Below, one piece after another: positions 13,315 through 21,937 of a stretch of 21,937 nucleotides of DNA (positions are counted from its first letter, which is position 1; the number at the start of each line of letters is the position of its first letter). A program made the translations under genes and the position numbers. The stretch spans positions 2,375,592 through 2,397,528 of the forward strand of contig CP070650.1 in NCBI GenBank assembly GCA_020354595.1, read 5' to 3'. The notes beneath the pieces were generated by a model. That model was given only the letters and a program-made list of their open reading frames with translations, had not been told where the DNA came from and did not search any database. The stretch is from Myxococcales bacterium. Its GTDB lineage: Bacteria; Myxococcota_A; Polyangia; Polyangiales; Houyiibacteriaceae.

Positions 13315-14676
13315 ATGGCGGGGAGGCTGACGGGTGCCGCGTTGCCGCTGCTTTGGGCGGCGATGCCGGGCGTTGCGTACGCGGCGAGCGGCGGCGACAA
13401 AGACGGCAGCGTTGGCGAGCTCGGCACGGTCGTGTTGCTCGTCCTCGTAGTCGGCGTGGCTTACGTCCTGGCACACAACGTCGTCGAGCGACTGCAGCGC
13501 CGCTTCCTGATCGTGAGCGGCGCGGAGTACTTGCTGTTGGGCGTCTTGCTTGGACCCGTCTTTCTGAAGATCGACGCGTTCGAAGACATGACCGGCCTCC
13601 TTCCGGTCATCGCCTTGGCAGCCGGCTGGGTCGGCCTCCTCCGCGGCACCGATTTCGACTTCGCGAGCCTCCAGAAGCTCGACCCAGCCACGTGGCGGAT
13701 CGTGTTCCTGCACCACTTGCTGCCCGGCATCGCCGTGGGGGTGAGCGCCTACTACTTCTTCATCCAGCCCGGCCTCGTATACGCGAAGTGGGAGCTTGGC
13801 GCGGATGAGACGCGCACCGCGATGCTGAGCGCGGCGGCTCTCGCGTGCTTTGCGGCCGCAGATTCCGCCGAGCCATTCGACCTCTTGTCGAGACGCTACG
13901 AAATCAGCGGTCGGCTCTCCCCGCTCCTGCGAAACGGGACGCGCCTCGGCGACATCATGGTCATCCTCGCGTTTGGCCTGATCTTCTGCGTGTTCCACCA
14001 AAGCGCACCCGGCGCCAAAGAATACTCTGCGTCGCTCTGGGCCTGGGTCACGTTCTTGCTCGGCGGAGCGCTCGGCTTCTTGTTCTCGCTCTTCTTGGCC
14101 GGTGACGAATCCGACAACTCGCGGTTCCTCGCGCTGGTAGGGATCATCGCGTTTGCTTCCGGCGGGGCGTATTTCCTAGAGCTTTCACCACTTGCGGTGA
14201 ACCTCTCGATGGGGTTCGTACTGGTGAACTTCGCGCGAGGCGGTCACCTCCTTCACAGCACACTCGAGTCGACCGAACGGCCCATGGCCATCGTGCTGCT
14301 GATATTCGCGGGTGCGCTGTGGACGCCCACCGATTGGAAGCTCACTCTGCTCGCGCTCGGCGCGTTTCTGGTTCTCCGGACCTCGGCCAAGTGGCTCGCG
14401 AGCGCCATCGCCGCTTGGGGGACGAGCTTACGGACGGACCTGTTCCGCGGCTTGCTGGCGCACGGCGACGTGACTCTCGCAATGGCGGTTTCCTTTCGGC
14501 TCGTCTACAAGGGGGGCGCCGCCGACATCGCCTACTCGGTGGTCCTCGGCTCGATCATGGTGAACGACCTCCTCGCGCCGCGCCTACTGCGCGGGTTGCT
14601 TGCTGACCAGGGCGAGATCCAGCGCGAGCTTAGGGACACCGATTCCCGCACATCGATCGAGGTATCCGCGAAATGA
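13315..14676 (+). CDS. CPA2-like cation/proton antiporter, RCK-less
   Basis: A 453-residue polytopic membrane protein. Residues 1-23 look like a cleavable signal (hydrophobic, ending AYA before ASGG). About a dozen hydrophobic helices follow. SGAEYLLLGVLLGP (68-81) matches the GYLLAGILLGP motif of Na_H_Exchanger/CPA2 proteins. RNGTRLGDIMVILAFGL (206-222), with Asp213 in the helix, and the late TLAMAVSFRLVYKGG and GSIMVNDLLAPRLLRGLL segments also fit that family. It lacks the C-terminal RCK (TrkA_N) domain of KefC/KefB; instead a free TrkA protein is encoded next, overlapping by ATGA. Na+ or K+ exchange against H+ is inferred. The 65-base gap upstream shows no clear promoter, so it may be read from the TetR promoter. 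A distant family member; assignment is moderate. Confidence 0.75.
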   Translation: MAGRLTGAALPLLWAAMPGVAYAASGGDKDGSVGELGTVVLLVLVVGVAYVLAHNVVERLQRRFLIVSGAEYLLLGVLLGPVFLKIDAFEDMTGLLPVIALAAGWVGLLRGTDFDFASLQKLDPATWRIVFLHHLLPGIAVGVSAYYFFIQPGLVYAKWELGADETRTAMLSAAALACFAAADSAEPFDLLSRRYEISGRLSPLLRNGTRLGDIMVILAFGLIFCVFHQSAPGAKEYSASLWAWVTFLLGGALGFLFSLFLAGDESDNSRFLALVGIIAFASGGAYFLELSPLAVNLSMGFVLVNFARGGHLLHSTLESTERPMAIVLLIFAGALWTPTDWKLTLLALGAFLVLRTSAKWLASAIAAWGTSLRTDLFRGLLAHGDVTLAMAVSFRLVYKGGAADIAYSVVLGSIMVNDLLAPRLLRGLLADQGEIQRELRDTDSRTSIEVSAK

Positions 14677-16013
14677 ACATCGTCATCATAGGTCTGGGCG
14701 AGGTCGGCCGTCATCTGTTGAGTGTCCTCGACAAGGAAGGACACGACATCGTCGCCGTCGATGCGAGCGCGAAGGCGGTGCAACACGCCGAGGAGAACTT
14801 CGATGTTGCGTCGATGGTGGGCTACGGGGCGAGCGAGACGTTGCTCAAGATCGCAGGCGTCGCTCGCGCGGACTTGGTGGCGGCCGTCACGAACCACGAC
14901 GAGATGAACCTCATCGCCGCGCTCGCCGCAAAGCAACTCGGGGCGAAGCACGTAGTCGCTCGTGTCCAAGGAACGGCATGGTCGGAGTGGACCGAGGGGA
15001 TCCGTTACGGCCTCCTCGGGGTCGACGTGGTCATCAACCCCCGAGTGCTCGTCGCTCAGGAGCTCAGTCGGATCGCTCGATCCTACGGCGCCTCCGACGT
15101 CGTCGACTTGGCGCAAGACCGCGTGGAGCTCGTTCAGATCGATCTCGAGGAATCGCGCGTGCTGAACAAGCCGCTGTCCTCGGTGGAGCTTCCGCCGCAC
15201 ACGCTCGTGAGCGCCGTGGTGCGCGACGGCGAGCTCTTCGTGCCGGGCGGGGCGGACGTGCTGGTCAAGGGGGACCGCGTCTACCTCATCGGGCGGCCCG
15301 AGGGCGTGCTGGCAGCCGAACGGCTCTTCAGCAAAGAGAGGGAGGCGAAGCGCGTCTGCATCGTGGGCGGAGGGGTCGTCGGTAAGGCGCTGGCTCGCGA
15401 GCTGCTGTCGCAGGGGGCGACCGTGATGATGATCGAGAGCGACCTCGCCACCGCCGAGGAGATCAGCGCCGAGTTCCAAGGCATCGAAGTGGTGCACGGC
15501 GACGGCACCGATGGCGCTCTTCTCGAAGAAGAAGAGGTCGGAACCTACGACCTATTCGCCGCCGTCACTCGCCAGGATGAGATCAACCTGATGGCGGCAT
15601 TGCTCGCGCAGCGCGCCGGCTGCAAACGCACCGCGACGATCGTCCAGCGCGCGGACTACGCGTCGATCTACCGCCAGCTCGGCGTCGACATCGTTCTGTC
15701 TCCACGAACCGTCGCTTCGGATCAGATTCTGCGCTTCTCGCGCGGCGGCGGTCTTCACAGTCTCACGGTGCTCGAAGACGGACAGGCCGAGGTCGTCGAG
15801 CTCACCGCGAGCCCCAAGTGCCGCGCCGTCAACAAGCCGCTTCACCGAATGAACCTTCCCCGTGGCTCGTTGCTCGCCGCCATCGTGCACGGGGACGATG
15901 TGATCATTCCGCACGGCAAGGACGTCGTTCATCCTGGCGACCGGGTCATTCTCATGACCACCCAAGACGCCCGGCCGACCGTCGAACGCCTCTTTCGACC
16001 GAGGGGTGAGTGA
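14673..16013 (+). CDS. trkA: Trk K+ transport system regulatory subunit TrkA
   Basis: A 446-residue peripheral protein with two tandem RCK units, the normal arrangement for TrkA. The first Rossmann fold begins MNIVIIGLGEVGRHLL with GLGEVG (7-12) and acidic Asp30 at the end of strand two. A first TrkA_C domain follows at about 143-223. The second fold begins RVCIVGGGVVGKALA with GGGVVG (232-237), and a second TrkA_C domain lies at about 365-443. It binds NAD(H) or ATP/ADP and gates TrkH from the cytoplasmic face. The ATG overlaps the antiporter stop (ATGA), with GAGG about 11 bases upstream; the stop overlaps the trkH GTG (GTGA). It may serve both the antiporter and TrkH, since the former has no RCK domain of its own. 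Confidence 0.96.
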   Translation: MNIVIIGLGEVGRHLLSVLDKEGHDIVAVDASAKAVQHAEENFDVASMVGYGASETLLKIAGVARADLVAAVTNHDEMNLIAALAAKQLGAKHVVARVQGTAWSEWTEGIRYGLLGVDVVINPRVLVAQELSRIARSYGASDVVDLAQDRVELVQIDLEESRVLNKPLSSVELPPHTLVSAVVRDGELFVPGGADVLVKGDRVYLIGRPEGVLAAERLFSKEREAKRVCIVGGGVVGKALARELLSQGATVMMIESDLATAEEISAEFQGIEVVHGDGTDGALLEEEEVGTYDLFAAVTRQDEINLMAALLAQRAGCKRTATIVQRADYASIYRQLGVDIVLSPRTVASDQILRFSRGGGLHSLTVLEDGQAEVVELTASPKCRAVNKPLHRMNLPRGSLLAAIVHGDDVIIPHGKDVVHPGDRVILMTTQDARPTVERLFRPRGE

Positions 16014-17500
16014 GCACGAAGGCGCGAGACTTTCGAGGCGTCATCCGCCCGGTCGGCGCGGTGGTCCTCGGCATCGGCGTGATGATCGCCTTGTGCGCAG
16101 GCGTCGGAATGCTCTGGGACCGGTTCGCGCCCGATCCGGTGCGCCCGCAAGGCGGCGCCGCCGAGCTCGCGCTGTCGTCGATCATCGTCTCTGCGATCGG
16201 GCTCACCGCGTTTCTCTACGGGAAGCGCCATGTGTCCGAGCGAATCACGCGCCGAGAGGCGATCCTGGCGGTGAGCCTGATCTGGATCGCGGCCGGGGCG
16301 TGCGGCGCCATCCCGTTCATGCTGGGCGCCGGCATGTCCCCCGCGGACTCCTTCTTCGAAGCGGTCAGCGGCCTCACGACGACCGGCGCGACGGTGGTGA
16401 CCGACATCGAAGGGCGGCTCTCGCGCCCGTTGCTGCTCTGGCGCTCGCTGATCCAGTGGCTCGGTGGGATGGGCATCGTCGTTTTGTTCGTTGCGGTCTT
16501 CCCAAGCCTCGGGGCAGGCGGAAAGCACATGTTCCGCGGCGAGGTGCCGGGCACGACGGCCGAGGGGCTTCGTCCGCGCATCGCGGAAACGTCGTTTGCG
16601 CTATGGAAACTCTACGCGTTGCTCACCTTGATCGAGATTGCGCTACTCAAGGTGCTCGGTCTCGATCTCTTCGACGCCGTGTGCCACGCGTTCACCACCA
16701 TGTCGACAGGGGGCTTTTCGACGCTCGACGCCTCGGTGGGCGGGTTCAACAGGCCCGCCGTCGAGTACGTCATCGCGTGCTTCATGCTGATCGGCAGCGT
16801 CAACTACGGGCTCTATTATGGCTTGTTGCGAAGCGGCAGTTGGCGGGGCCTCGTGCGGGACATCGAGTTCCGTTCCTACGTAGCCATCGTCATCGTCGCC
16901 GTGGTCGTATTGACGGTTCTGAACCTCAGCGTGCACGACGAGGTTCTCACCTCGTTCCGCTACTCGTTCTTCATGGTCGCAACGACGATCTCATCGACCG
17001 GCTACGGTACGGACGACTACAGCGTCTACAGCTCGACCGCGTTGACGATCGTGATCCTGCTGATGTTCGTCGGAGGCTGCTCGTGATCGACGGCCGGCGG
17101 CATCAAGATCGAGCGTGCCGTCTTGATGGGAAAGCAGGCTATCGCCCAGCTCCAAAAGAGCTTTCGCCCCGCCACCGTCCAGCTCGTTCGTATGGGAAGA
17201 ACGGCCGTGAGCCCGCAGGTCCTAGCCGACGTCGCATCGTTCTTCTTGATCTACATGGGCTGCATCGGCTTTGGTCTGCTCTTCGTGACGTTGGTCGAGG
17301 GCGTCCCGGTGCCGACGGCATTCGGAACGATGCTTACGTGCCTCTCCAACATGGGCCCGGCTCCCTTCCACGTCGGGCCGGATAACTTCGCTGCGTACTC
17401 CGCGGGTAGCAAAATGTTCTTCGCGCTCGCGATGCTGCTCGGGCGCCTCGAGTTCTTCACGCTGTTCGCCTTGATTCTCCCCGGGTTCTGGAGGCGTTGA
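16010..17500 (+). pseudogene. trkH: Trk K+ channel subunit TrkH, interrupted by in-frame TGA
   Basis: The membrane subunit for K+ uptake. The frame runs from GTG (16010) to a TGA at 17084-17086 (358 codons), then continues without shift for 137 codons to the stop at 17498-17500. Together they make a normal TrkH of about 495 residues. The selectivity loops are TTTGAT (123-128), TMSTGGFS (230-237), SSTGYGT (328-334) and GGCS-stop-STAGGIK. Family members read GGCSGSTAGGIK there, so the stop replaces the conserved filter glycine and is one base from GGA. The part after the stop has the usual TrkH ending (LGRLEFFTLFALILPGFWRR). A protein ending at the stop would lack the fourth pore loop and should not conduct K+. 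The two overlapping neighbours look intact. Decay, sequencing error and readthrough are all possible. Confidence 0.85.
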
Positions 17501-20500
17501 TGACGGGCTCGTACAGCATGCCGCCTCCAGGCGAAGAGACCCACGCGCGAAGGCAGATCACCGTCATCGTCTTGCTTCTGTTCGGCATGGTAGCGCTTTA
17601 CCAGTTCGAGCAGTTCGCCCAGGAAGCCTTCGACCCGAGCGGGATGCTCGCCTTCGGTTTCGTGGTGTTGGCGAGTTACACGATCGGCGGGCTCGTCGGT
17701 CAGATTCGTCTGCCACACATCACCGGGTACCTGATCGCCGGCCTGGTGTTCGGTCCTTCGCTTGCCAAGGCGCTGAGCGGGCTCGATCTCCCGCCGCCGT
17801 TCGACAAGGGCATACTCAACGACGAAGTCATCGAGCAGCTGAGCTTGCTCGACACGCTCGCCGTGGCGCTCATCGCTCTGACCGCAGGTGGCGAGCTCAA
17901 GCTGGAAGGCCTCAAGAAAGGCCTCCGCGTCATCAGCTCGATCCTCGCGGCGCAGTTGGTGTCGATCGGCGTCCTGATGACCGGTTTCTTCTGGCTGATC
18001 TCCGGCGCGGTCCCCTTCGTCTCGCTTCCCGGCATGTCCGGTTTGCCCATGATGGCCGCACTCGCTGTCGGCGGCATGGTGGCATCGGTGTCCTTGGCCA
18101 CGTCTCCTGCGGCCACGATCGCCGTGATCATGGAGTCCCGGGCCGAAGGCCCGATGACCCGAAACGTCCTGTCGGTGGTCGTGCTCAAAGACGTCATCGT
18201 GCTCGTTGCGTTCGCCGTCGCTCAGGTCGTCGTCGCTCAACAGATCGGGATGGGGGCGCTCGAAAGTGGCTTCTGGGAGTACATTCTCAACCACATCGTC
18301 TTTTCGATCGCCTTCGGCGCGCTGGTCGTCGGCGGCTTGATGGCGCTCTACATTCGCTACGTCAATCAGGAGCTTCTGATCTTCGTGATCGGCCTGGTGT
18401 ATCTGGTCGCCTTCATTTGTGATCAACTCGGCTGGGACCCCGTGCTGGTATTCCTAGCCGCCGGTTTCGGCGTCGCGAACTTCTCGAAGACCGGCCACCG
18501 ACTCATCGAGACGGTCGAGCGCCTCTCGCTCCCCGTCTACGTCGTCTTCTTCACGCTCGCGGGCGCCAAGCTGCATCTCGAGCAGCTACAACAGGTCGCG
18601 CTCTTCGCAGTGGCTCTGGTCGCCGTCCGCGTTTTCGCGATCTATGCAGGCACCAACCTCGGCGCGCGCCTGAGCAAGGCAGACGAGGCAACGCGAACGT
18701 TCGGCTGGATGGGCTTCGTGTCGCAGGCCGGCGTATCGATCCTGCTGGCCGCGCTGGTCGGCAACTCGTTCGGAGAGATCGGGAAATCGCTCGAAACGCT
18801 GATCATCGGCGGCGTCGCGATCAACGAGCTGATCGGCCCGGTGCTCTTCAAGATGGGCCTCGGCCTCGCCGGCGAAACCAGCGGCACGCGGACCTCGCTC
18901 TCGCCGACGCGCCACCTTTCGGTCAAGCCGCCCTCGCTTCGCCCCGAAGGTGACGAAGGCACATCCAAGCAGCTCGAGCCCTGGCCCGAGCACGTCGGGG
19001 AAAAAGACCTGTGGGGCGAGCCGCTCCACACGAAAAGCGCGGAGCTCAACTCCCGAGTGCAGGATCTTGGCGGAGACCTACAGAGCATCGTCCGCGAGGT
19101 TTCGACCGGCCCGCTCCGCAATTTTCAAATCGATGCCGGGAAGTACCTCCGCGATCTTCGACGCGAGTTCCTGCGCCAGCACCGGCGTTTGACCGTGCAG
19201 GCGCGGGCAGAGGAGGGCGTCGAGCGCGACGAGCTAGTGACGATGCTTCGCACGGCGCAGTCTGAGCTGGCGGCGCATTGGCGAGGCATCGTGCTCGGCA
19301 GGTCTGTGACGCTTGCGAAGCTCACATGGACGCCCGAAAACATCCTGTCGAACGTGGACAGCGTCGTCGACGAGCTGCCGGAAGTGGTCTCGGCGCCATA
19401 CGAGGACGTCTCGTACGAGCTCCATGAGGACGACTCCCTGTGGAAGAGCGTGCGTCGGGGAATCCTGCGGATGCGGCGCGGCTGGCGCAAGGCTCTCGGG
19501 CAGAGCCCGCCGATGCGAGACGTCCGGCTACGGGCGCTCGGGCGCTACCATCTGTCCTATGACGCGCCGTCTCGTTTCGAGGCGCTCGCGGCCTTGTTCG
19601 TCGAAGCGGATCGCCACATGGCTGCCCGAACGCGAAGCCTCTTCGACGGGGTGATCGCGGGGTACGACGACGTGGTCGACGTCTGCAGCGATCCGAGCGC
19701 AGATCTCGAAAGGCAGCTCGTGCGCTTGCGCCACGAGGTCGAGGAAGAGCTCGCCCTCGCCCTCGATGAGGTCGTCCGCATCACGAGCGACGGAACGCAC
19801 CGAGCTGCCAGCGCCGTTGCGGTCGGCTTCGTCCAGATGAAGGACGACCTGCCGACCTTCGGGACGGTGGATCTTCCGTCCAGCGAGCGGCGGACGAGCA
19901 GGCGTTTCGCCAACCGCATGCGAGCGATCGAGACGCTGACCAAGGACGTCGCCAACCTTCGCAAAGCGAGCTCGGCAGAGTACTCGTCGTTGGCGATGGA
20001 GCTCGAGTTGCTCGGCCTCGAAGCGCGAATCAAGGACAATGTCGCCGAGTACGTGCTGCGTCTCACCAACACGGTCAACCGACGCGCGACGTCCCAGGTG
20101 GCCCGCGTGAGTGACATGCTTCAGGCGGCGCTCGCGGAGCTGAGCAAACAGCTCGAGAGCGACCTCTCGGGCGAGGAGCTGGCAACGGCACTTCGAGCCG
20201 CCACGGAAGCGACGAGCAAAGCCACGGGGGAAGCTGCGCGAGTCACCAACGAGCTCTACCAGGACCTCAGCGACGACACGAAGATCGCACCGTTGTTGGA
20301 TACGCTGGTAGAGGCGTGCCGAGCGCTAACCCCGCGGTACCGCGTCACAGTCGGTCAACGGCAAACCGGAGAGTGGCGCTTGCCAACCGCATTGCCCGAG
20401 GTAGAGGTTCCTTTTCGTGAGGTCATCCTCACTTACATCGACAGTCGCGTTGCGCCGAAACTTCTTTCGATCCAACGCGAGCTCGCCGAACGGGTTCAGC

Positions 20501-21937
20501 CATTGGCCAACTTGCTGCAAGAGCTCGAGCGTGTGGTGGCTTTCAACGTCGAGCTAGCGACCGCGGAGCTGGAAATCGTCCACGACGAGGCGGTTCCCGA
20601 AGAGATGCACTCCTTGTTGCGAGACATGGTCTACAGCCAGCTCGAGCGCAGCTACAACTCGCTCGAAGAGATCCGGGTCGAGGCCAAGGGGTGGCCGCAA
20701 ATCATCGAGACCGAGATGGAGGATGCGGCGCTCGGTACCTTGGAAACGCTGCGCGAAGAGCTTGCCGAAGGTGAGTTCAGCCGATCGCGGCTCGAGGCGA
20801 TGCGCCGAGCCGCCAGCGGCCTCCGCATGATCGAAAAGGCTGAAAAGCCACCGCGGATCGAACTAATCAAGGCCCAGGCCGTCAGCGCGCTTCGGGCGCT
20901 GTTCGGGGCGGAACGACTGGAGTATTGGAGTGAGCGCCTGGGACTCAAGGGACCGCTCCCCACCGAAGAGCTGACCGCGGGAAGCTTTGCCGCGCCCGAC
21001 GTCGGCACGGAGCTTCCGCTAGTCTACCGGCGCCTCTTTGCAGCCGACACCATGGAGGCCGGCGACGTGCTCACCGGTCGCGACGAGGAGATCCGTCGCG
21101 CAGAGTCAGTGCTTTCGAGTGAGCAAAGGGGTCGCTTGCGGTCGGTGGCGCTGATCGGCGTCGACGGTGTCGGCAAGGCGGCTGTGTCGAGCGCGATCGT
21201 GCGAAGCCGACGTTGGAAGAACGTCAAACGCGTCGTCTTCACGGGACCGGTCACGGTCGAAGACGTCGACGCAATCTTTCAAGATGCTCCGGAGGGTCAG
21301 CTCGTCGTGGTCGACGGCTTGCATTGGATGCTCTCGATGGCGCCCGGTGGATTCGAACCGCTTCGCCGGTTCGTCAAAGGCATCATTGAAGAGGGCGGAC
21401 GCAGGCGCTGGTTGACCCACGGCGCGGTTTTGTTCTGGAACTTCGCGTCCACCGTCGCGCCTCTGAAGGATGCGTTCCCGGAGTTGATCCGACTCGAACC
21501 GTTGAGCGAGCAAGAGCTTCAAGCGGCCGTGATCGCGCGGCATCGGCTCAGCGGCTTTGAGCATTCGTTCGACCGAGGCGACGGCTCCCCCATCGAGGGC
21601 CTCTTCGCGCGGGGAGCGAGTCGAATCCGCCGGCCCTACGATCAATACTTTCACGAGCTTCACCAGGCGACAGGCGGTTTGGTGCGAGATGCGCTTCGCC
21701 TATGGCTCGCATCGATCCGAGAGATTCAAGATGACATCGTCCACGTCGGACCGATTCCTGCGTCGCCATACACACGGATTCGACGGCTGCCCGACGACAT
21801 CATGGTCAACCTCTACCAGATCGCGCGTGAGGGTTGGATGGACGCCGCAGGTCAGGCGCGGCTTTTCCGTCTGGACGTCAACACCGCGCAGGCACAGCTC
21901 AGTCGTCTCGCGCACCTCGGGCTGCTCGAAGAGCGAG
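17500..21937 (+). CDS. Giant fusion: CPA2-type cation/H+ antiporter, helical region, AAA/STAND-like ATPase (3' end missing)
   Basis: One uninterrupted frame of 1479 codons running off the window. The ATG overlaps the trkH stop (TGATG), with GGAGG (17490-17494) upstream. Residues about 15-462 form a polytopic antiporter domain with LPHITGYLIAGLVFGPS (72-88), TSPAAT (201-206), LKDVIVLV with Asp231, and SQAGVSILLAALVGNSFGE (408-426). A linker (463-505) leads to about 650 hydrophilic residues (508-1160), rich in Leu, Glu, Ala and Arg, with coiled-coil-like stretches and no recognised domain. After LPLVYRRLF and LTGRDEEI comes a P-loop module: Walker A GVDGVGKAA (1220-1228), Walker B LVVVDGLHWM (1268-1277), then LEPLSEQELQAAVIARHRLSGF, as in AAA/STAND lids, then a probable winged helix. 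The usual Thr/Ser after the Walker Lys is Ala. The antiporter call is firm; the ATPase's sensory role is inference. Confidence 0.85.
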   Translation, partial: MTGSYSMPPPGEETHARRQITVIVLLLFGMVALYQFEQFAQEAFDPSGMLAFGFVVLASYTIGGLVGQIRLPHITGYLIAGLVFGPSLAKALSGLDLPPPFDKGILNDEVIEQLSLLDTLAVALIALTAGGELKLEGLKKGLRVISSILAAQLVSIGVLMTGFFWLISGAVPFVSLPGMSGLPMMAALAVGGMVASVSLATSPAATIAVIMESRAEGPMTRNVLSVVVLKDVIVLVAFAVAQVVVAQQIGMGALESGFWEYILNHIVFSIAFGALVVGGLMALYIRYVNQELLIFVIGLVYLVAFICDQLGWDPVLVFLAAGFGVANFSKTGHRLIETVERLSLPVYVVFFTLAGAKLHLEQLQQVALFAVALVAVRVFAIYAGTNLGARLSKADEATRTFGWMGFVSQAGVSILLAALVGNSFGEIGKSLETLIIGGVAINELIGPVLFKMGLGLAGETSGTRTSLSPTRHLSVKPPSLRPEGDEGTSKQLEPWPEHVGEKDLWGEPLHTKSAELNSRVQDLGGDLQSIVREVSTGPLRNFQIDAGKYLRDLRREFLRQHRRLTVQARAEEGVERDELVTMLRTAQSELAAHWRGIVLGRSVTLAKLTWTPENILSNVDSVVDELPEVVSAPYEDVSYELHEDDSLWKSVRRGILRMRRGWRKALGQSPPMRDVRLRALGRYHLSYDAPSRFEALAALFVEADRHMAARTRSLFDGVIAGYDDVVDVCSDPSADLERQLVRLRHEVEEELALALDEVVRITSDGTHRAASAVAVGFVQMKDDLPTFGTVDLPSSERRTSRRFANRMRAIETLTKDVANLRKASSAEYSSLAMELELLGLEARIKDNVAEYVLRLTNTVNRRATSQVARVSDMLQAALAELSKQLESDLSGEELATALRAATEATSKATGEAARVTNELYQDLSDDTKIAPLLDTLVEACRALTPRYRVTVGQRQTGEWRLPTALPEVEVPFREVILTYIDSRVAPKLLSIQRELAERVQPLANLLQELERVVAFNVELATAELEIVHDEAVPEEMHSLLRDMVYSQLERSYNSLEEIRVEAKGWPQIIETEMEDAALGTLETLREELAEGEFSRSRLEAMRRAASGLRMIEKAEKPPRIELIKAQAVSALRALFGAERLEYWSERLGLKGPLPTEELTAGSFAAPDVGTELPLVYRRLFAADTMEAGDVLTGRDEEIRRAESVLSSEQRGRLRSVALIGVDGVGKAAVSSAIVRSRRWKNVKRVVFTGPVTVEDVDAIFQDAPEGQLVVVDGLHWMLSMAPGGFEPLRRFVKGIIEEGGRRRWLTHGAVLFWNFASTVAPLKDAFPELIRLEPLSEQELQAAVIARHRLSGFEHSFDRGDGSPIEGLFARGASRIRRPYDQYFHELHQATGGLVRDALRLWLASIREIQDDIVHVGPIPASPYTRIRRLPDDIMVNLYQIAREGWMDAAGQARLFRLDVNTAQAQLSRLAHLGLLEER

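Follow-up and report, generated by a model that had tools for sequence, protein, structure and literature searches.

The DNA analysed here, a window of 21,937 nucleotides from a Myxococcales bacterium (contig CP070650.1 of assembly GCA_020354595.1, positions 2,375,592 to 2,397,528 of the forward strand), ends in a gene for a giant protein in which a domain of the Na+/H+-exchanger superfamily is followed by ~650 residues of long helices and then by an AAA+ domain with a winged helix, all in a single frame. The giant gene is the last of an operon that runs from a 453-residue antiporter-fold protein (hereafter the partner) through TrkA and TrkH to the giant itself. Judging from the sequences of these proteins and their relatives, the giant probably serves as the large subunit in an antiporter of two subunits, and its AAA+ domain looks like a nucleotide-binding switch rather than a motor. 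We tentatively propose, at a little less than an even chance for the chain as a whole, that energy charge gates cation/H+ exchange through a heterodimer equipped with a non-hydrolysing AAA+ domain. Coordinates are collected in Table 1, and residues are numbered from the ATG at 17500.

That the antiporter-arm-AAA+ architecture is real we regard as close to certain, given its recurrence among related sequences. In a protein search, 110 of the best 120 of 230 homologues were longer than 1,430 amino acids, fusion being judged by length together with Pfam matches or alignment, and several of the matches listed bear the name of an antiporter from Myxococcales, Polyangiales or Myxococcota. The two homologue lists comprised the best 120 of 230 and the best 120 of 214 matches, and the counts out of 110 given below include many near copies. 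Antiporter and ATPase lay in one open frame in 26 of 57 relatives, one of which (G010) ends at residue 1397, at a contig end, and in pieces in 8 more, including two (G009 and G017) that show no ATPase piece and for which contig ends are assumed. A whole or partial giant was encoded at nineteen loci in named assemblies, the SG8_38 assembly among them, and the same fusion was found at 80-90% identity in named assemblies of other samples. Across the phylum, the ATPase profile matched in 45 of 188 genomes (E 1e-8), and open reading frame (ORF) analysis of regions picked from genomes with such matches recovered the antiporter-arm-ATPase order in at least nine Myxococcota families (f1, f3, f11, f23, f27, f29, f36, f42 and f43), the arms of f23 and f43 being mostly too diverged to match the arm profile. 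An earlier note on this DNA, made from the letters alone, had described such a fusion and named as its refutation homologues that are always two separate genes; the long homologues and the nine families establish the single gene, and the domain order that the note wished to see in other genomes is present in them. An assembly chimera or a misread frame might be suspected in an assembly that is incomplete (rated 66.8%) and in which the adjacent upstream trkH is broken by a stop codon; with the identical fusion present in other samples and across families, the chimera is already refuted, and such an artefact is scarcely credible.

The antiporter domain matched PF00999 with an E value of 1e-21 (77.6 bits against a curated cut-off of 26.2), in keeping with the complete antiporter described in the note. 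We read its cation/proton antiporter (CPA) motif as TSPA, a residue other than Glu at position 5, KD at positions 6-7 and Arg at position 8. The residue preceding Asp231 was K in 105, L in 2, and I, Q and T in 1 each of the 110 near giants, and residue 226, at position 5, was V in 70, T in 17, A in 13, S in 9 and I in 1, Val being the residue in the window. In the part of PMC9408914 available to us, the CPA motif is given an Asp at position 7 and an Arg or Lys at position 8, and the ion-site pairs named are ND and DD; KD is not among them. The giant has both the Asp (D231, 110 of 110) and the basic residue (Arg 377, its place being inferred), and the Glu at position 5 that marks CPA1 occurs in 0 of 110. 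Placement within the superfamily is mixed: the lack of this Glu speaks for CPA2, as does KefB, the best of five E. coli K-12 antiporters compared with the antiporter profile (YbaL was weak, KefC not significant, and CvrA and YjcE gave no match), yet the only match among PDB sequences was the CPA1 member NHE1 (E 2e-5). No TrkA_N or TrkA_C match to an RCK domain was found in the giant (Pfam, E up to 1). The missing RCK had been noticed before; the label 'KefB/KefC-type CPA2' that went with it proves too specific for a protein without RCK, with KD in place of QD, with NHE1 as its only PDB match and with no significant match to KefC. In a 1,817-residue relative of the giant (P0134), carboxypeptidase-regulatory-like Pfam matches lie in a gap that separates membrane helices, at residues ~260-398.

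The partner is the giant's most constant neighbour. Its profile (A4) aligned with the antiporter profile (A3) over 385 columns (hhalign probability 99.8, E 8e-30), which by profile comparison identifies it as a full-length relative, or paralogue, of the giant's antiporter domain. At E < 1e-100, every one of the 34 relatives with a giant has it, as against a single one of the 23 without (Fisher p 7e-15, for genomes that are related and so not independent). Of the 45 phylum genomes with an ATPase match, 34 had the partner no more than 10 kb from it on the same strand, 9 (counting a weak match in G097) had it at another place, and 2, both with a different architecture, lacked it. The genome sets behind these two counts (57 relatives and 45 phylum genomes) were compiled by eye from search results; G133 entered the proximity count by a second ATPase match and G221 by a stand-alone frame, and four genomes (G111, G215, G139 and G186) stand in it without an architecture class, their ATPase frames running off a contig start. 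The genomes of L046, L108 and L112 carry the partner away from the giant.

The partner family is commoner than the ATPase, with matches in 81 of 188 phylum genomes (1e-6), and the pair also occurs without the arm and ATPase. Among 20 regions selected for partner-like matches, 18 (L152-L157 and L160-L171, all from Myxococcota) held tandem antiporter-fold pairs, small subunit first, with no arm or ATPase match (1e-3); the remaining regions held the large type only (L158) or the small type only (L159). The frames of these pairs overlap by four bases in nine cases and by seven bases in a tenth, stop codons included. It is because two-subunit pairs occur without the ATPase that the giant is probably the large member of such a pair. 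In the pairs without ATPase, the small subunit often has DD or DE at the ion site and the large subunit mostly SD, AD or GD.

Position 7 of the ion site was D in 29, E in 3 and N in 2 of 34 diverse giants, those of f23 having mostly AD or GD, and of 22 partner sequences, 10 had D at the corresponding position, 3 had E and the other 9 had neither, an Arg being invariant (22 of 22). Most pairs thus appear to have at least one acid, and the partner has the look of a subunit for which carrying ions is optional. Two giants of f36 (L087 and L086) have NN instead of KD, and the single f36 partner in our table (G129, L113) has DE, which suggests that the ion-carrying subunit can change. A different subunit make-up, in which the antiporter is a KefC-like homodimer and the 453-residue neighbour an independent transporter that shares its operon, would accord with the partners that keep the ion-site Asp, and with the description of KefC, NhaA and PaNhaP as homodimers or dimers in the available parts of PMC11150392 and PMC9408914. 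It fits poorly with the loss of the acid in nine partners, and with two kinds of persistence: partner and giant keep together in the 7 of 20 regions that lack trk, and the paired antiporter-fold genes do so in regions that lack the ATPase. We hold the homodimer to be unlikely; it bears on subunit make-up alone and is compatible with a nucleotide switch.

Turning to the other end of the giant, the model of its AAA+ domain and winged helix (pLDDT, predicted local distance difference test, of 84) matched the folds of RuvB, ORC, RFC and PAN in the PDB. The GxxxxGK pattern of Walker A is present with its Lys (Lys1226 in the giant) in 110 of 110 near homologues, and the P-loop fold and winged-helix tail proposed from the letters are thereby upheld. 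The residues for hydrolysis have mostly been lost. The Ser or Thr that follows the Lys normally holds Mg2+; at this place we found A in 96, G in 8, S in 5 and V in 1. The second Walker B acid is missing from all 110 (G 108, A 1, N 1), and the first position is D in 95, S in 8, E in 4, N in 2 and G in 1, or, among 34 sequences of less than 80% identity, D in 21, S in 7, E in 4, N in 1 and G in 1. The invariant Arg of GGLVRDAL is presumably sensor 2. In L031, of the same family as the window, the Walker A Lys is replaced by Arg. With the Lys kept and the hydrolytic residues lost, the domain is better read as a switch that binds nucleotide than as a motor. Of the earlier label 'AAA/STAND-like, ORC-like', the ORC/RuvB-like AAA+ fold stands and the STAND part is not clearly borne out: the window protein showed no STAND match and no C-terminal sensor repeats (Pfam, E up to 1), and the sole Pfam STAND match seen above its cut-off was nSTAND1 in a distant relative (L090).

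Two other roles for this domain have to be weighed. It could be an active ATPase working on the arm or on a substrate protein, as its AAA+ fold with lid and winged helix might suggest; both Walker B acids are present in 14 of 65 compared ATPases of all architectures, including the fused-type P0139, P0140, L092, L100 and L126, and a second arm-AAA+ frame next to the giant of G221 keeps the pair E-E. In the clade of the window, however, no sequence has the second acid and 105 of 110 lack the Ser or Thr after the Lys, and we judge an active ATPase improbable. Alternatively, arm and AAA+ may form a scaffold that ties the antiporter to the Trk complex, to its own copies or to DNA, with no regulation by nucleotide. 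The lost catalytic residues, a first Walker B acid that is not fixed, the destroyed Walker A of the G221 giant and the long helices of the arm model would all suit a scaffold, and winged helices often bind DNA or protein. The Walker A Lys and the Arg of GGLVRDAL, both kept in 110 of 110, are hard to explain without nucleotide binding, and we think a pure scaffold somewhat unlikely.

The arm modelled alone with AlphaFold2 gave a pLDDT of 88.2 and a predicted template modelling score of 0.75, with a longest helix of 84 residues, which bears out the helical stretch of about 650 residues noted earlier. Arm and AAA+ also occur together in five proteins of 1,033-1,185 amino acids without membrane helices by hydropathy (P0136, P0137, P0138, P0142 and L123), and the alignment of these stand-alone proteins with the giant covers 846 columns of arm and AAA+ (hhalign E 1.6e-85). 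Four further proteins of 927-930 amino acids, one of them named as Acidobacteriota, gave a match of 480 columns (E 3.5e-39) that takes in the end of the arm and the AAA+. In a third architecture the same ATPase follows a long N-terminal part and a few membrane helices (L098 1067-4297 and L102 3302-6616), the N-terminal part being probably a periplasmic coiled coil; ORFs of this kind, of ~770-1,220 amino acids, were also seen in L124, L127-L131, L135, L137 and L142. The third architecture forms one group in the ATPase tree (100/99), two of its members (L129 and L137) retain Walker B DE, and the tree does not fix the number of fusion events. In G221 (L172 2-2680), the second arm-AAA+ frame is open at the contig start and lies directly upstream of the partner and of a giant without Walker A, a single case that suggests mixed AAA+ assemblies.

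How these parts might work together can be sketched as follows. The giant would be the large subunit of a monovalent cation/proton antiporter in which the usual homodimer gives way to a pairing of the two antiporter-fold proteins, as a heterodimer or as a dimer of heterodimers. Its AAA+ domain would bind ATP or ADP with little hydrolysis, and either the nucleotide bound or the resulting association of AAA+ domains would move or release the arm, which in turn would lock or free the elevator movement of the transport core. The AAA+ domain would thus take, by way of the long arm, the role played by RCK in KefC, a homodimer that is held together and inhibited by its AMP-bound RCK domains, according to the part of PMC11150392 available. 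With trkA and trkH in the operon, K+ uptake and cation/H+ exchange could both be set by the adenylate state, TrkA closing TrkH with ADP and opening it with ATP in the accessible part of PMC6987127. The heterodimer, the binding of nucleotide, the direction of control and the ion (Na+ or K+) are, like the gating of the antiporter, things that we infer; what the sequences themselves show is the parts, their order, their conservation and the worn active site. The earlier suggestion of an exchanger gated by a nucleoside triphosphate switch survives as the best guess overall.

Several observations weigh against this proposal. Most AAA+ proteins are ring-forming ATPases, and hydrolysis despite the altered active site is possible. 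Walker A is absent even from the G221 giant, so nucleotide binding is not universal. In f36, with NN in the giant and DE in the partner, it is as if the carrier role had moved between the subunits. Weaker partner-like matches were found in 10 more of the 23 relatives without a giant, G173, G092 and G142 have a partner at E < 1e-100 with no ATPase match at 1e-8, and the giant of G097 (L114) lacks a good partner, a single query finding none at 1e-3 and the profile one at 2e-27. The trk genes are not always beside the partner-giant pair, being missing there in 7 of 20 regions. Gene order and co-occurrence, moreover, cannot by themselves establish a complex; nor are the related genomes independent of one another.

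A broader reading, which we put forward as quite unlikely in its full form, is that of a class of obligately two-subunit cation/proton antiporters, some lineages of which acquired an AAA+ switch that does not hydrolyse, carried on a long arm; driven by nucleotide, the assembly of AAA+ domains would then gang antiporters together and couple them to energy charge. One subunit would be the main ion carrier and the other a degenerate antiporter-fold protein, and in some species a separate arm-AAA+ protein that keeps the catalytic acids would join in.

The genes of the operon overlap at ATGA (14673), GTGA (16010) and TGATG (17498). In the window assembly, an in-frame TGA at 17084-17086 breaks trkH within the latter half of the channel, and a stop is found in none of the 8 named relatives checked; the TGA is either an assembly error or a loss of function. 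Among 20 regions chosen for the presence of fused matches (L103-L122), 10 had the order partner-trkA-trkH-giant, 7 had partner and giant without trk matches, and in 3 (L108, L112 and L114) the partner was not adjacent. Nine of the 19 named loci entered the gene-order analysis, and all four genes stood together at 8 of them, the exception being L046. At L046 (2-9893), the 5' end of the giant borders immediately on phage genes (tail tape-measure, tail sheath, tail fibre and virion); the 10 kb upstream of it gave no match to trk or to the partner, which sits instead at ~104.5 kb on G014:C1. A 582-residue frame with about four membrane helices adjoins the 3' end of the giant in G042 (L108 2548-4293).

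Table 1. Features of the operon and of the giant protein, with positions in the window.
Feature	Position	Strand	Basis or remark
Giant subunit	17500..21937	+	At least 1,479 codons; ATG start at 17500 (TTG at 17497 possible); continues beyond the window end
Antiporter domain, residues 21-461	17560..18882	+	PF00999 and alignment A3
Ion-site pair K230-D231, CPA motif positions 6-7	18187..18192	+	D 110/110, K 105/110; aligned to KefB QD and NHE1 ND
R377, invariant basic residue, probable CPA motif position 8	18628..18630	+	34/34 rows of A3
Helical arm, residues 504-1151	19009..20952	+	Arm modelled by itself (AlphaFold2); stand-alone arm-AAA+ proteins match by profile
Degenerate AAA+ with lid and winged helix, residue 1180 to window end	21037..21936	+	Model and fold matches
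Walker A GVDGVGKA, Lys kept, Ser/Thr replaced by Ala	21157..21180	+	110 near homologues
Walker B VVVDG, second acid lost	21304..21318	+	110 near homologues
Arg 1396 in GGLVRDAL, sensor-2-like	21685..21687	+	R 110/110
Winged-helix tail, last part outside the window	21766..21936	+	1w5t aligned up to the model end
Partner, 453-residue antiporter-fold protein (small subunit)	13315..14676	+	No Pfam match of its own; hhalign to antiporter profile
TrkA, two RCK (TrkA_N/TrkA_C) units	14673..16013	+	Pfam 6e-46; NCBIfam NF007039 above cut-off; ATGA overlap with partner gene
TrkH K+ channel subunit	16010..17500	+	Pfam TrkH, pieces 16010-17086 and 17123-17500

Each piece of the giant belongs to a known superfamily. 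New with respect to the earlier note are the partner and the trkA-trkH neighbourhood, the pair without ATPase, the arm and AAA+ on their own, and the worn state of the ATPase. Known regulation of bacterial cation/H+ antiporters is by RCK, by other small ligand-binding domains and by partner proteins. Neither the giant nor the partner matched an anti-phage defence model of PADLOC (E 0.1). Among the titles and abstract openings found, in a search that left subscription journals mostly uncovered, none described either the fusion of a cation/proton antiporter with an AAA+ or STAND domain or a CPA pair that is heterodimeric. If the proposal is right, AAA+ proteins would join the regulators of secondary transporters, and the giant with its partner would be a candidate example of a heterodimeric CPA antiporter in which one subunit is degenerate. 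The pair alone, the pair with a fused AAA+ and the stand-alone arm-AAA+ proteins would then make up a natural set showing how a worn ATPase becomes a switch, and the question whether K+ uptake and cation exchange share an adenylate signal would be opened to direct experiment.

Among known systems, KefC and KefB resemble the giant in that an antiporter domain of the same superfamily is followed by a cytosolic, nucleotide-binding regulatory part, and KefB aligned to profile A3 over positions 28-426 of 435. The giant differs from them in having no RCK match, KD instead of QD and a far longer cytosolic part with an AAA+ fold, and its operon has a second antiporter-fold gene, trkA and trkH rather than KefF- or KefG-like genes. 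NHE1 and its CPA1 relatives furnish the only PDB sequence matches, and the ND of NHE1 aligns with the KD of the giant, which, unlike them, has Val 226 in place of the CPA1 Glu at position 5; we know of no counterpart of the AAA+ arm in CPA1 exchangers. The C-terminal fold, lid and winged helix are those of ORC1/Cdc6, RuvB and RFC-type AAA+ proteins; unlike them, the giant has lost the catalytic residues and carries the domain on a membrane transporter. STAND proteins share the P-loop domain and winged helix, and nSTAND1 appears in L090, whereas the giant has no STAND match and no C-terminal sensor repeats detected by Pfam. A Myxococcus xanthus protein (Q1D5P4, 432 amino acids; TC 2.A.37.6.1) is, by its description in the available part of PMC3924187, a remote CPA2-type antiporter of about the size of the partner, and it is treated there as a single antiporter, unlike the two subunits that we propose. 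TrkH-TrkA, finally, shares with the giant both an operon and, if we are right, the control of ion transport by nucleotide, exerted there by an RCK ring on a channel and here by an AAA+ domain on an antiporter.

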